From Alphaproteobacteria bacterium (GTDB lineage: Bacteria > Pseudomonadota > Alphaproteobacteria > SMXQ01), in NCBI GenBank assembly GCA_030831315.1, contig JAURLI010000050.1, forward strand, positions 1 to 34,300: DNA of 34,300 bases. The letters are read 5' to 3'. This document shows positions 15,429 to 23,404 of the stretch, piece after piece. Position 1 is the first letter of the stretch. Each line of letters starts with the position of its first letter. The notes below the pieces were generated by a model. The model searched no databases and was not told the DNA's origin. It saw only the letters and a list, made by a program, of their open reading frames with translations. The position numbers and the translations under genes were made by a program.

Positions 15429-16163
15429 TCAGCGTCCGTAAAGGCGCGCGATCACCGGCGCAGGCAGGCCGAGGAACCACAGCCCAAGACAGGACAGATT
15501 GCGCAACGGGCGCAGGATCCAGCCCGCCTTGCCTTCGCGGTAACGCGCGGCCGAGGTGATCGCCGCGGCATCGAGCATGCGCAGGCGCATGGAGCCGATG
15601 CGGCAGACGATATCGACGTCTTCCATCAGCGGGTCCTTGCCGAAGCCGCCGAGCGCGCGATAGAAGCCGCGCGAGATCAGCAGGCCCTGATCGCCATAGG
15701 GAAGCGCCAGCTCGCGCGAGCGCCAGCCGACGACGGCTTCGAGGAACCGCGCGGTGCGGGACGGATCGTCGAGGACGAATCGGAACGCCGCCGCCTTGCC
15801 CGGATTGGCCGGGTTGTTGATATGGCCCGACGCCGCGCACAGCCAGTTGTCGGCCAGGCGCGTGTCGGCATGAAGGAAAAGAAGCCAGTCGCCGTTCGCC
15901 GCATCGGCCCCGGCGGCAAGCTGGGAGCCGCGACCCTTGGGCGCGCTGGCGACGCGGGCGCCGAGCTGGCCGGCGAGCGCGACGGTGTCGTCGCTCGAGC
16001 CGCCGTCGACGACGATGATCTCGATTTCGGGGGCGATGACGCCGGCATCGCGGGCCATGCGGACGCCCTGGACGATGGACGTGAAGCAAGCAGGCAGATG
16101 GGCCGCCGCATCCAGCGTCGGAATGACGATACTCAACAAGATGGACTTCTCCTCGATACGCAT
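15429..16163 (-). CDS. Family 2 glycosyltransferase (TIGR04283-type)
   Basis: A 244-residue GT-A glycosyltransferase. The N-terminal LSIVIPTLDAAAHLPACF begins the nucleotide-sugar binding fold, VVDGGSSDDTVALA (about 51-64) is the second conserved segment, and the DXD-like motif lies in FLHADTRLADNW. Further on are YGDQGLLISRGFYRALGGF and MEDVDIVCRI, the acidic acceptor-side motif of family 2 enzymes. There is no large membrane domain, though the C-terminal LRNLSCLGLWFLGLPAPVIARLY is hydrophobic and may contact the membrane. The start ATG at 16163 is preceded by GGGAGG. It forms an operon with the DUF2064 gene. The sugar transferred is unknown. Confidence 0.88.
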   Translation of the reverse strand: MRIEEKSILLSIVIPTLDAAAHLPACFTSIVQGVRMARDAGVIAPEIEIIVVDGGSSDDTVALAGQLGARVASAPKGRGSQLAAGADAANGDWLLFLHADTRLADNWLCAASGHINNPANPGKAAAFRFVLDDPSRTARFLEAVVGWRSRELALPYGDQGLLISRGFYRALGGFGKDPLMEDVDIVCRIGSMRLRMLDAAAITSAARYREGKAGWILRPLRNLSCLGLWFLGLPAPVIARLYGR

Positions 16164-16323: not shown

Positions 16324-16338
16324 GTTCTTGATTTGTTC
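16324..16338 (+). promoter_or_regulatory. Candidate LexA (SOS) operator, GTTC-N7-GTTC
   Basis: The sequence GTTCTTGATTTGTTC is an exact match to the direct repeat GTTC-N7-GTTC that LexA of alphaproteobacteria binds. It lies 25-39 bases upstream of the ATG at 16363, where it could block transcription of the radical SAM gene. The neighbouring gap is AT-rich. Identification is by motif only. Confidence 0.7.
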
Positions 16339-16362
16339 TATTTGCGGCGCCATCCTGCCAGA

Positions 16363-17475
16363 ATGGATATCTTGCCCGATCTTCCGGGCGCCAGGCCGCT
16401 CAAGGGCCGGGGCGCCGTATCGAACCCGACAGGGCGGTTCGAACGCGAGCGCCGCCAGCGCGCCGACGACGGCTGGGCGGCGGAAACGGTCGAACCAACC
16501 GAGGGGGCCCGGCCGCGCACGCGTATCCTCGTCGATGCGACGCGCACCACGATCACGCGCAATTCTTCCCCCGATGTGCCGTTCGACCGCTCGATCAATC
16601 CCTATCGCGGCTGCGAGCACGGCTGCATCTACTGCTTCGCACGCCCCACCCATGCCTATCTCGGCCTGTCGCCGGGCCTTGATTTCGAGACCAGCATCCT
16701 CGCCAAGCCCGACGCGCCGCGCTTGCTCGCGAAGGAGCTTTCGCGCGCCGGCTACCGCTGCCGGCCGATCGCCATGGGCACCAATACCGATCCCTACCAG
16801 CCGATCGAACGGCGCCTGCGAATCACGCGCGGCATTCTCGACGTGCTGTCGGCCTTCAATCACCCGGTCAGCATCGTCACCAAGTCCGACGCCATTCTCG
16901 CCGACCGCGACCTGCTCGCCGACATGGCGGCACGCAACCTGGCGAAAGTTTACCTGTCCGTCACCACGCTGGACGGCGATCTCGCCCGCAGGCTGGAGCC
17001 GCGCGCGTCAACGCCTGCGCGCCGCCTTGCCGCGGTGCGCGCGCTGCGTGATGCGGGCGTGCCCACGGGCGTCATGGTGGCACCGATCATCCCGGCGCTG
17101 ACCGACGCCGAAATCGAATCGATCCTCGATGCGGCGAAGGACGCGGGCGCGGAGGAAACCGGATATATCCTGCTGCGCCTGCCGCTCGAGGTGAAAGACC
17201 TGTTCGCCGAATGGCTGGCGGCACACTATCCCGAGCGCGCCGCCAAGGTTCTGGCGCTGGTGCGCGACACGCGCGCGGGCGAATTGAACGATGCCACTTT
17301 CGGGCGGCGTATGCGGGGCGTTGGCGCCTATGCGGCGCTGATCGAAAGGCGCTTCACCATCGCTGCAAGGCGGCTCGGCCTCGGCCACGAAAAGGGCCGC
17401 GAAGGCATGACCTCGCTCGATTGCTCGCGTTTCGCGCCGCCCGTGGCGCCCGCCCGCCAGCTCGCGCTGTTTTAA
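16363..17475 (+). CDS. PA0069-family radical SAM protein
   Basis: A 370-residue radical SAM enzyme of the SplB-like PA0069 group. The 4Fe-4S motif CEHGCIYC (Cys84, Cys88, Cys91) sits in INPYRGCEHGCIYCFARPTH, followed by YLGLSPGLDFET, IAMGTNTDPYQPIER and SIVTKSDAILADRDLL, all characteristic of this family. It uses S-adenosylmethionine to form a 5'-deoxyadenosyl radical; the substrate is not known to me, although similarity to spore photoproduct lyase makes a DNA repair role possible. A TTG at 16333 would lengthen the protein but falls inside the candidate LexA site and adds no family sequence, so the ATG at 16363 is preferred. The stop overlaps the convergent methyltransferase stop in a TTAA palindrome. 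Confidence 0.93.
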   Translation: MDILPDLPGARPLKGRGAVSNPTGRFERERRQRADDGWAAETVEPTEGARPRTRILVDATRTTITRNSSPDVPFDRSINPYRGCEHGCIYCFARPTHAYLGLSPGLDFETSILAKPDAPRLLAKELSRAGYRCRPIAMGTNTDPYQPIERRLRITRGILDVLSAFNHPVSIVTKSDAILADRDLLADMAARNLAKVYLSVTTLDGDLARRLEPRASTPARRLAAVRALRDAGVPTGVMVAPIIPALTDAEIESILDAAKDAGAEETGYILLRLPLEVKDLFAEWLAAHYPERAAKVLALVRDTRAGELNDATFGRRMRGVGAYAALIERRFTIAARRLGLGHEKGREGMTSLDCSRFAPPVAPARQLALF

Positions 17476-18435: not shown

Positions 18436-19827
18436 ATGGATGGACATACCGACCTGACCGGCATTGCTGTCGTCGGCCTCGCCGCGCTGATCTGCGGCAT
18501 GGTGATGACGCGCCTGCGCCAGCCCGCCGTCGTCGGCTACATCCTCGCCGGCATCCTGCTCGGCCCCACGGCAGCGGGGCTGGTCGCCAACCAGGACCAG
18601 ATCCGCCTGCTCGCCGATCTCGGCGTTCTCATGCTCCTGTTCATGGTCGGCCTGGAACTGCCGGTGGCGCAGTTCATGAAGGTCTGGCGCATGGCGATCG
18701 TGATCACGCTGGGCCAGATCGCGGGCTTCCTGCTGATCGCCTGGGGCATCGCGCACCTGATGGGCTGGCCGCCCGCCTTCGCCGTGCTGCTCGCCTTCGC
18801 CGCCGCCCTGTCATCGACCGCCGTCGCCATCAAGATGCTCGAAGATATCGGCGAGCGCGACAGCGACACCGGCCGCATCGCCGTCGCCGTGCTGATCGCC
18901 CAGGACCTCGCCGTTGTCCCGATGATGCTGATCGTCGCCGACATGGGCGGCACCGGTTTTTCGGCCTCGGGCGTCGCCAAGGTGATCGTGTCGGGCGCGA
19001 TGCTGACCGGGCTCATCGTCTTCTTCGCCAAGAAGGGGCCTGTGGCCCTGCCCTTTGCAGAACGCATCGCGGCGCATCCCGAACTGCGCCCGGTGGGCGC
19101 CATCGCCTGCTGCCTCGCCGCTGCCGCCCTCGCCGGCCTGTTCGGACTATCTGCGGCCTATGGCGCGTTCCTCGTCGGGCTCGTGCTCGGCAACGTCAAG
19201 GGTGCCGACGACCTAACCCATGCGGCGAAGCCCATCGAGGGGCTCCTGATGATGGTGTTCTTCCTGTCGGTCGGACTGTTGATCGACCTCGATTTCATCT
19301 GGGCCAACCTTGGGCGCGTGCTGTCGTGGCTCGCCATCGTCACCGTGGTCAAGACGGCGCTCAACATCGCGCTCATCCGGGCACTTGGCCAGCCGTGGCC
19401 GCGCGCCTTCCTTGCGGGCGTGCTGCTCGGCCAGATCGGGGAATTCTCCTTCCTGCTCGCCGCCCAGGGCAACGCTGCGGGGATCGTGCCCGAAGGGCAA
19501 GGCCCGCTGGTGATCGCCGTCGTCGCACTTTCGCTGCTGATCAGTCCGCTGTGGCTGTTGACGGCGCGCCGCCTGCATCTTGTCGCCTCGCGCCGCGGCG
19601 CCACCCTCGGCCTCATGCTCGGATATCTCTGGCGCGGCAACTGGCGCCGGGCGGCGGCACGGGTGCGGCCTCTTGCGCGCGCCGCGGTCAACGGCGCCAA
19701 TGGGCTTGCGCGCAAGGCGGGAAACAAACTGCGCCGGCGCAAGACCGCCAACGACAACGCCGGTGCAACGCCCGTCGTATCGGCACCCGAAAAACCGCAA
19801 GATGATGGCAACCGGGACCGTGCCTGA
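18436..19827 (+). CDS. CPA2-family cation:proton antiporter (Kef-type membrane domain)
   Basis: A 463-residue polytopic membrane protein with about 12 membrane segments up to residue 390. Family motifs include [24 protein letters not shown] (about 28-51), [27 protein letters not shown] and the [14 protein letters not shown] segment containing the conserved Gln-Asp, which are shared by KefB/KefC-like potassium/proton and sodium/proton antiporters. The C-terminal 70 residues are basic and hydrophilic ([11 protein letters not shown]); the TrkA-N/RCK nucleotide-binding domain of KefB/KefC is absent, so gating must differ. The ATG at 18436 is preferred to a TTG 16 codons upstream, which has no family sequence. 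The 3' end overlaps rnhB by 26 bases. Confidence 0.92.
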
Positions 19828-20452
19828 TTTCGCGCTCGAGGCGGCACTTGGCGGAAATGTCTGCGGCGTCGACGAAGCGGGCCGCGGCCCCTGGGCGGGA
19901 CCGGTGGTGGCGGGCGCCGCCGTCATCGACATCGAATATTTGCCTGCTGCCTTGCGCGAGCGTCTCGACGATTCGAAAAAGCTGACGGCCAAGCGGCGCG
20001 AACAGGTCTTCGCCATGATGGAGGCCGCCGCCGCCGACGGCGCGATGCATTTCACCATCGCCGAAGCGAGCGTCGCCGAAATCGATGCCCTGAATATCCT
20101 GCGCGCGACCATGCTGGCCATGACGCGCGCCGTCGCCGCCCTGCCGCTTGTACCCGATCACGCTCTGATCGACGGCAACCGGGTGCCCGAAGGCCTGCCC
20201 TGTCCGGGCCGCAGCGTCATCGGGGGCGATGCGCGTTCGCTCTCCATCGCCGCGGCAAGCATCGCCGCCAAGGTCAGCCGCGACCGCATGATGGCGGCGC
20301 TCGATGCCGAGTTCCCGGGTTACGGCTTCGCCCGCCACGCGGGCTACGGCACGCCCGACCACCAGGCGGCGCTCGCCCGCCTCGGCCCCTCGCCCGCCCA
20401 CCGCAGGAGCTTCGCCCCGGTGCGCCGGCTTCTGGACGCCCACAATATCTAG
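19802..20452 (+). CDS. rnhB: Ribonuclease HII
   Basis: RNase HII cuts RNA in RNA-DNA hybrids and starts the removal of single ribonucleotides from DNA. With the ATG at 19802 the protein has 216 residues, a normal length. The catalytic acids are present: Asp24 and Glu25 in [14 protein letters not shown], Asp124 in LIDGN and Asp143 in [24 protein letters not shown] at 57-61 is the other family hallmark. The true start may be 19802, the adjacent ATG at 19805 or GTG at 19820; all lie inside the end of the antiporter gene, suggesting coupled translation. ccrM follows after 97 bases. Confidence 0.95.
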
Positions 20453-20495: not shown

Positions 20496-21683
<1,188 letters not shown>

Positions 21684-21699
21684 TCGACGGCCTGACCGG

Positions 21700-22785
21700 C
21701 TAGTCGAGCAGCGAAGGCGCACCGGCGCCGATCACCTTCTTCATGATGCTGGGAAGTGCGTGGGCCGCGAGGTTGTCCCGCGATACCCACTTCGCATCCG
21801 CGCCGAAATGCGCGAGCGCCTTGGCGGGAAGCCGCGCGCGCCTGATCTCCATCTCGAGACGGAAATGGGTGAAGACGTGGAAGATCTCCCCGCCCCGGTG
21901 CCAACGCGCCCGCGCGGGGGGTACTGCGTCGAATGCGCCGTCGACGATCCACTCGCTCGACGGCACTTCCCACATGCCGCCCAGCAGGCCCTTTTCCGGG
22001 CGGCGGCGCAGCGCCACTTCGCCCTTGTCGTTGAGCGCGAGCCACGCCACCGCCCGGCGCACGGGGCGCGCCGCCTTGCGGGCGCGGCGCGGCAGGCCGG
22101 CGGCAATGCCCTTGGCATGGGCGGCACAAGACTGGATGAGCGGGCAGGCGTCGCAATCGGGGCTTCGCGGCGCGCAGACGGTGGCGCCGAGATCCATCAT
22201 CGCCTGGGCGTAATCGCCCGCCCGCCTTGCCGGCGTCAGCGTCGCGGCCAGTTCACGCAGGCGCGGCTTCGCCTGCGGCAAGGGTTCCGTTACCGCGAAC
22301 AGGCGGGCGATGACGCGTTCGACATTGCCGTCCACCACCGTCGCCGCCTCGTCATATGCGATGGCCGCGATCGCCGCCGCCGTATAGGGGCCGATGCCGG
22401 GCAATTCCTGCAACCGGGCAGAGCTCGCCGGAAAGACGCCGCCCAGATCGTGGGAAACCGCTTCGGCGCATTTCTTCAAATTGCGCGCGCGCGCGTAATA
22501 GCCGAGCCCCTGCCACTGGGCGAGCACATCATCGAGGGGGGCTGCCGCCAGCCCGTGAACATCGGGCCAGCGGGCCAGGAAGCGCCCGAAATAGGGAATG
22601 ATGGCGGCCACCGTCGTCTGTTGCAGCATGATTTCCGAAAGCCACACCCGGTAGGGATCGGGCCGCACGCCCGGCGCCGCGCGCCAGGGCAGATCACGCC
22701 TTGCGCGGTCGTACCAGGCAAGCAGGCGGCGCGCGTGAGCCTTGGGGGCCGGGGCGATATGGCTGTGGTCTTTGCGTGGCGGCAT
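21700..22785 (-). CDS. mutY: A/G-specific adenine DNA glycosylase
   Basis: MutY removes adenine mispaired with 8-oxoguanine or guanine. The 361-residue protein has the HhH-GPD fold: LPWRAAPGVRPDPYRVWLSEIMLQQT-like N-terminal region with the catalytic Glu in SEIMLQQTTV, the helix-hairpin-helix LPGIGPYTAAAIAAIAY, and the catalytic Asp in VVDGNVERVIARL. The 4Fe-4S ligands fit C-x6-C-x2-C-x5-C exactly in the segment CAPRSPDCDACPLIQSC. The C-terminal third is the NUDIX-like domain that reads 8-oxoguanine (RRRPEKGLLGGMWEVPSSEW). The ATG at 22785 is preferred: the frame continues upstream but overlaps the divergent gene and adds no family sequence. Confidence 0.96.
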   Translation of the reverse strand: MPPRKDHSHIAPAPKAHARRLLAWYDRARRDLPWRAAPGVRPDPYRVWLSEIMLQQTTVAAIIPYFGRFLARWPDVHGLAAAPLDDVLAQWQGLGYYARARNLKKCAEAVSHDLGGVFPASSARLQELPGIGPYTAAAIAAIAYDEAATVVDGNVERVIARLFAVTEPLPQAKPRLRELAATLTPARRAGDYAQAMMDLGATVCAPRSPDCDACPLIQSCAAHAKGIAAGLPRRARKAARPVRRAVAWLALNDKGEVALRRRPEKGLLGGMWEVPSSEWIVDGAFDAVPPARARWHRGGEIFHVFTHFRLEMEIRRARLPAKALAHFGADAKWVSRDNLAAHALPSIMKKVIGAGAPSLLD

Positions 22786-22861
22786 TTCCGGTCCATCATG
22801 CCGCCGTTGGACCGCACACGCCAGCGCGGCACACGAACCGACAGGACATGAGCGAACACCC

Positions 22862-23404
22862 GTGAGCGAGGACAAGGACAGCGCGATCAAGGCCAGGCGC
22901 GGCATGACCACGCTCGGCCAGAGCATCGGCCGGGTGACATCGCCCGCCATGCGCCGGCGCGGCTTCGCCGAAGCGGCGATCATCACCAACTGGCCCGCCA
23001 TCGTCGGACGGCCCTTGTGCGAGCATACCCAGCCGTCGCGCATCGTCTTTCCGCGCGGCGAAAGGCTGGGCGGCACTCTGCATCTTCTGGTATCGGGCGC
23101 CTTCGCCCCGGACGTCCAGCACCTCGCGCCCCAGATCATCGAGCGCATCAACGGCCATTTCGGCTACGGTGCCATCGCCCGCATCGAACTGCATCACGGC
23201 CGCATCGATGGCCCCGACCACTCCCCCGCTGAGGACACACCGGCGCCCGAGCCGCCCGCCGAGGTCAAGGCCGCCATCGGCAAGGTCGCCGATGAAGGGC
23301 TGGCCACGGCGCTCGACCGCCTGGCGCGCGCCCGCGAAGCGGCCGAAAGCCGCCCGCCCCGCGCCCGTCGCCTGCGCCCGGGCGAGCGCCGCCGCCCCGT
23401 ATAA
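22862..23404 (+). CDS. DUF721 / DciA-like protein
   Basis: A 180-residue protein with a DUF721 domain. The domain covers about 20-105 and includes RRRGFAEAAIITNWPAIVG and the later strand-helix segment GTLHLLVSGAFAPDVQHLAPQIIERINGHFGYGAIARI. DciA, the widespread bacterial loader of the replicative helicase DnaB, belongs to this family, so a replication role is likely but not proven by sequence alone. The C-terminal part (about 115-180) is a charged, Ala- and Arg-rich extension. The GTG at 22862 (VSEDKDSAIKARRGM) is the most probable start; upstream codons in frame look non-coding and overlap the mutY promoter region. The gene is divergent from mutY. Confidence 0.8.
   Translation: MSEDKDSAIKARRGMTTLGQSIGRVTSPAMRRRGFAEAAIITNWPAIVGRPLCEHTQPSRIVFPRGERLGGTLHLLVSGAFAPDVQHLAPQIIERINGHFGYGAIARIELHHGRIDGPDHSPAEDTPAPEPPAEVKAAIGKVADEGLATALDRLARAREAAESRPPRARRLRPGERRRPV

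Follow-up and report, generated by a model that had tools for sequence, protein, structure and literature searches.

The radical SAM gene that begins at position 16363 of the window (the whole 34.3-kb stretch of alphaproteobacterial DNA that was analysed) stands very probably under the control of LexA, as judged by the comparison of its upstream region with those of its relatives. I propose that a LexA operator covers the -35 of a promoter of the sigma-70 type whose transcript is leaderless, and that the promoter serves a radical SAM enzyme that would act on damaged DNA or nucleotides. Taken whole, this is the best explanation of what was found and a highly probable one. The site, its conservation, its geometry, and the family and predicted fold of the protein are established directly. 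The features are collected in Table 1.

Table 1. Features of the window and the grounds on which each was placed. Offsets are counted from the first G of the box (offset 0).
Feature	Position	Strand	Grounds
LexA operator GTTCTTGATTTGTTC (alphaproteobacterial SOS box)	16324..16338	+	exact GTTC-N7-GTTC; conserved before orthologues
Probable -35 element TTGATT, within the operator spacer	16328..16333	+	conserved offsets 4-6; from sequence
Probable -10 element, weak: CATCCT, 17 bases after the -35	16351..16356	+	offset 27; from sequence
Probable transcription start at the A of ATG, leaderless mRNA	16363	+	start-codon spacing, Shine-Dalgarno count
PA0069-family radical SAM protein of 370 aa, with CxxxCxxC (residues 84-91)	16363..17475	+	NF033668, PF04055
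RNase HII gene (rnhB)	19580..20452	+	PF01351; conserved downstream neighbour in the class, two genes between here
DNA methylase with RAMA domain, presumably CcrM-like	20550-21683	+	domain match
MutY-like glycosylase gene	21700-23151	-	stands with rnhB and the DNA methylase gene

The initial annotation had claimed an SOS box 25 bases before the start of this gene. The box is exact and lies where it had been placed, shortly before the ATG as claimed, with 24 bases rather than 25 between the two. It is the single match to GTTC-N7-GTTC in the window. Chance would be expected to give 0.73 matches in a window of this kind, and 52 of 100 shuffles of it have at least one, so the match by itself is no proof of anything.

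Then there is the conservation of the site. The model of the PA0069 family, NF033668, was run against an even draw of 153 genomes from the class, which the named relatives indicate to be Alphaproteobacteria. Among 14 control genomes, Caulobacter included, one exceeds the cut-off. In the draw of 153, matches over the cut-off were found in 81 and not in the other 72, and since 68 of the 153 have no match at all, the radical SAM gene is not a core SOS gene. When the window's own genome and a family member that is counted with the family are set aside, 79 upstream stretches are left. The exact box occurs within 350 bases of the gene in 69 of these; the coding strand carries it in 68, the opposite strand in 1. 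Boxes occur in at least one genome of 55 of the 62 GTDB families. The ten orthologues that lack an exact box divide into six with a one-mismatch site and four with none. In the window's own family, one of 11 genomes has no match to the model, and the nine other genomes with the gene all carry the box. The initial annotation had suggested that the box be sought before orthologues in related species, and it is present there, both across the class and within the family.

These counts are far from what the same 79 stretches give for related patterns. Spacings of 3 to 6 and 8 to 12 occur in at most 3 loci, and 11 other arrangements of the letters in at most 2, while the remainder of the class loci has 1 GTTC-N7-GTTC site in 179,693 bases. 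A second set, consisting of the best 80 of 589 loci (the named set), has the box within 450 bases upstream in 53 of the 80, with 56 sites in 27,340 upstream bases compared to 9 in 507,211 bases elsewhere. One of the 53, L134, is from Pseudomonas and matches on the reverse strand, probably by chance.

The strongest argument for LexA control is that the type of operator changes with the class of the host. A draw from the whole phylum provided 34 genomes of other proteobacterial classes over the NF033668 cut-off. None of the 34 has the alphaproteobacterial GTTC-N7-GTTC upstream of the gene; 25 have instead the unrelated E. coli-type box, CTGT-N8-ACAG, within 300 bases, and 9 are without it. Other spacings of CTGT-N8-ACAG are found in at most 1 of the 34, and CTGT-N8-ACAG itself in 1 of the 79 stretches from the alphaproteobacterial sample. 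Among the best 80 of 589 loci, 13 of the 14 from Pseudomonas have CTGT-N8-ACAG just ahead of the start codon. PA0069 is reportedly in the LexA list of the P. aeruginosa regulon study made by Cirz and colleagues in 2006. On the evidence of sequence, the operator of the PA0069-family gene matches in type the LexA of its host. A change from GTTC-N7-GTTC to CTGT-N8-ACAG with LexA control retained would mean that the link to DNA damage is under selection and not the accident of one lineage. The comparative evidence thus argues strongly for the control by DNA damage, through LexA, that the initial annotation had considered probable.

The site also keeps telling company within its own genome (2.70 Mb in 89 contigs), which contains 65 exact GTTC-N7-GTTC sites, whereas the reversed pattern occurs 32 times. 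A simple home-made gene caller based on codon usage classified 64 of the 65 (the last has a G+C-rich spacer): 12 are intergenic, 2 partly genic, and 50 inside genes. Only five of the 64 have spacers with six or seven A/T, and all five are intergenic. They precede recA, lexA, an imuA-like gene (NF033429, 76.6 bits, under the cut-off of 150), a gene resembling staphylococcal nuclease, and the radical SAM gene. The window site, AT-rich and intergenic like those of recA, lexA, and the imuA-like gene, therefore belongs to a small group that resembles an SOS regulon. The genome's LexA (TIGR00498, 176 bits, with S24 and LexA DNA-binding domains) itself has such a box, 20 bp before the called lexA gene.

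Some of the sites in this genome deserve mention for their own sake. The box before the imuA-like gene (L049:1501-1515, on C65) is in the opposite orientation, and in that frame an ATG likewise lies 39 bases from the first base of the box. The gene resembling staphylococcal nuclease is preceded by a 15-mer identical to GTTCTTGATTTGTTC (L051:1501-1515, equivalent to C69:9735-9749), followed by TAGGTT as a -10, at offset 27 as well, and, only near offset 97, by a start codon; this gene is probably a further SOS gene of the genome. About 256 bases upstream of mraZ is GTTCGCTTTATGTTC (L034:1501-1515, equivalent to C46:46555-46569), which is possibly a LexA site ahead of the cell-division cluster.

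There is more to the conserved region than the two GTTC half-sites. In the 77 loci with a box on the coding strand (68 from the class and 9 from the family), offsets 4 to 6 are T, T, and G in 65, 65, and 61 loci, respectively. Further along, TAnnnT or TAnnAn is most frequent at offset 27, where 29 of the 77 loci have it; the adjoining offsets 26 and 28 have it in 8 and 7 loci. The same peak is seen in 30 of the 53 loci drawn from the best 80 of 589 plus the window. Judged from sequence, these conserved elements are probably a -35/-10 pair separated by 17 bases, with the -35 inside the operator, and such a position of the -35 would account for the constant orientation of the site. In seven loci (L069, L085, L097, L099, L119, L120, and L139), TTGAC or TTGA directly follows the box, which suggests that in these the promoter is displaced some ten bases while the operator is unchanged.

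The distance from operator to start codon is equally constrained. An in-frame ATG or GTG is found at offset 38 to 40 in 46 of the 68 class loci (23 of them at exactly 39), compared to a mean of 1.8 and a maximum of 5 in shuffled sequence. Over all 77 loci, the in-frame starts at offsets 38, 39, and 40 number 7, 31, and 16. A Shine-Dalgarno core precedes the start in 3 of the 46 loci, where shuffled sequence would lead one to expect 3.2. Since the -10 predicts a transcription start that falls on the start codon itself, and there is no enrichment of Shine-Dalgarno sequences, the mRNA of the radical SAM gene is likely to be leaderless. Leaderless expression is not universal, because rhizobial loci keep the geometry of -35 and -10 while their start codons lie further downstream. 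The spacing of about 39 bases between operator and start provides a simple rule by which start codons of the PA0069 family may be corrected.

A second gene recurs near the first. RNase HII is a nuclease of DNA repair, and in the window two genes stand between its gene and the radical SAM gene, one for a Na/H exchanger and one, on the opposite strand, for a methyltransferase. Of 81 class genomes, 46 have rnhB on the same strand no more than 3 kb downstream, and in 20 the distance between the two models is within 300 bases. In 19 of these 20, compared by eye, the exact box precedes the radical SAM gene. In the species where the two are within 300 bases, rnhB is probably part of the LexA-controlled transcript. 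The linkage suggests a candidate partner for the radical SAM enzyme. Synteny may simply be inherited, so gene neighbours are not accepted here as direct proof of function. On the other side of the promoter, the divergent neighbour (15429-16163, minus strand) is near to the TIGR04283 family of arsenosugar glycosyltransferases, at 181.9 bits with a cut-off of 182; upstream genes on the reverse strand that look similar by eye occur in 10 of the named loci (the best 80 of 589).

The protein belongs to the PA0069 family of radical SAM proteins, as initially annotated: it matches NF033668 over positions 1-348 of 348 at 503 bits, with a curated cut-off of 360, and contains the Radical_SAM domain, PF04055. 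The second-best NCBIfam match is to the Rv2578c family (NF038135, residues 68-297), yet its 228 bits are below the cut-off of 430. An AlphaFold2 model (mean pLDDT 81.6) was built on an alignment, A1, of 50 sequences: the window protein and 49 from the best 80 of 589 loci. Chains of spore photoproduct lyase (SPL; PDB 4fhc and mutants) are the best match of this model in Foldseek (E 3.2e-9) and come first in a fold comparison as well, at Z 19.3-19.6 compared to 15.3 for the next protein. The likeness covers the radical SAM domain and, with a trimmed model, extends at its widest over residues 27-349, but identity in the structural alignment is only 15-16%. A search of PDB profiles with A1 gave only SkfB at E 0.0023, plus a weak and probably spurious match to a globin sensor.

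If the window were all that one had, the operator might well be a chance repeat, given how often shuffled windows contain a match and that most of the 65 sites in the genome fall within genes. It is too great a coincidence, however, that a chance repeat should recur before the orthologues when control patterns do not, hold a constant distance to the start codon, and give way to a different operator in different classes. These observations refute the idea, it is rejected, and its probability is negligible. Scarcely more credible is translation from the TTG at 16333, which would make the box partly coding. The open frame does extend to this TTG, but the codon is part of the operator and comes before the predicted start of transcription, and a relative, L142, 77% identical, has its ATG at the same offset of 39. 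The ATG at +39 is the conserved start position, and the case previously made against the longer TTG start holds good.

With the operator accepted, there is still the matter of what the enzyme does. The initial annotation had related it to spore photoproduct lyase, a claim that holds at the level of fold, with SPL at the top in both structure searches, and weakly at the level of sequence. A phmmer comparison of the window protein with SPL gives E 0.83 and pairs C133 with a stretch of SPL that has a cysteine before TSD. The SPL model TIGR04070 (photo_TT_lyase) has no match to the window protein at E 0.001 and is matched weakly by 9 of the 50 members of A1 (best 1.3e-5), fewer than the 15 of 50 that match MoaA. 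The cluster cysteines C84, C88, and C91 are invariant in all 50 members, and a search of the 50 for a further conserved cysteine found none, the next best being C133, in 23. In the PDB titles the cysteine of SPL is numbered C140, and I take it to be the hydrogen donor of the Geobacillus enzyme. Since only the three cluster cysteines are invariant, that donor is not a trait of the PA0069 family. C133 precedes strand 136-138 of the model and, for that reason, should sit at the end of the barrel away from the active site. On the other hand, SPL is the best fold match, and a comparative study of 2012 (PMC3323433), in the part of its text available, takes its splB to be a true SPL. With only the cluster cysteines conserved, it is improbable that the window protein is one, and the label was rejected for want of a TIGR04070 match and a conserved donor. 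A different view is that the operator is real but the enzyme has no part in DNA repair and serves a side branch of the SOS response, with RNA, the nucleotide pool, or a peptide as what it modifies. The same core fold serves many radical SAM reactions, chains of SuiB, NifB, lipoyl synthase, SkfB, and viperin-like proteins come after SPL in the fold list, and NF033668 is of the NCBI type hypoth_equivalog, with no activity of its members that I know of. Such a side branch is quite possible, if rather doubtful: SPL leads the rest of the fold list by about 4 Z units, the gene appears to be co-regulated with recA, lexA, and the imuA-like gene, and the conserved neighbour, found in 46 of the 81 class genomes, is RNase HII. 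I lean, with some reserve, towards an enzyme that repairs DNA or nucleotides. The repair function in the initial annotation is plausible from regulation and fold; its reaction is a matter of inference.

From these observations I infer LexA binding, induction, a point of transcription start, and a substrate as follows. In undamaged cells, LexA on GTTC-N7-GTTC would bar RNA polymerase from the -35 TTGATT. Upon DNA damage, LexA, stimulated by RecA, would cleave itself and free the promoter. Transcription would then begin on the A of the ATG or immediately beside it, and the enzyme would be made from a message with no 5' leader. With a 4Fe-4S cluster held by C84, C88, and C91, S-adenosylmethionine, and an SPL-like fold, the enzyme would most probably apply radical chemistry to damaged DNA or nucleotides, and either its lesion or its hydrogen donor would differ from that of SPL.

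The regulation is of a known kind, because LexA control of splB homologues was predicted in 2012, for alpha- and beta-proteobacteria (PMC3323433), and later regulons are similar. The available part of that study has the same argument from divergent motifs, applied to an SPL homologue with lineage-specific LexA sites, but it describes the control as absent from gamma-proteobacteria, where 13 of the 14 Pseudomonas loci among the best 80 of 589 have the gamma-type box here. COG1533 is absent from its main text, and its splB need not be the PA0069 family. Neither promoter geometry nor a leaderless start nor rnhB was found in the available part. A radical SAM protein appears to be a recurrent member of SOS regulons: SplB/COG1533 or a radical SAM protein is in those of Bacteroidetes (PMC8565304) and of Gram-positives and Balneolaeota (PMC7739468), and vnz_31145 of Streptomyces venezuelae is tabulated with LexA ChIP-seq and mitomycin RNA-seq results (PMC9380542), so far as the accessible text of each extends. 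These cases differ in phylum and operator, and it is the label SplB/COG1533 or radical SAM that likens them to the present one. In the portions of the published literature at hand, I found no operator laid over the -35 of a leaderless gene of this kind, no Pseudomonas boxes of the PA0069-family gene, and no linkage to rnhB. Such portions of the papers on PA0069 or Rv2578c (including PMC7485682) yielded no link to SOS, and those on leaderless genes and LexA (including PMC4287350) nothing on the PA0069-family radical SAM gene.

For an enzyme with no assigned substrate, the regulation of its gene is often the best clue, and here it renders the question of substrate testable. The broadest reading, speculative and on balance unlikely in its entirety, is that the PA0069 family is a widespread SOS repair enzyme of proteobacteria, with radical chemistry that is not that of SPL, expressed from a leaderless, LexA-gated gene and often co-transcribed with rnhB in alphaproteobacteria. 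If it is true, SOS induction in those bacteria would couple a radical repair step with the removal of ribonucleotides or RNA-DNA hybrids.
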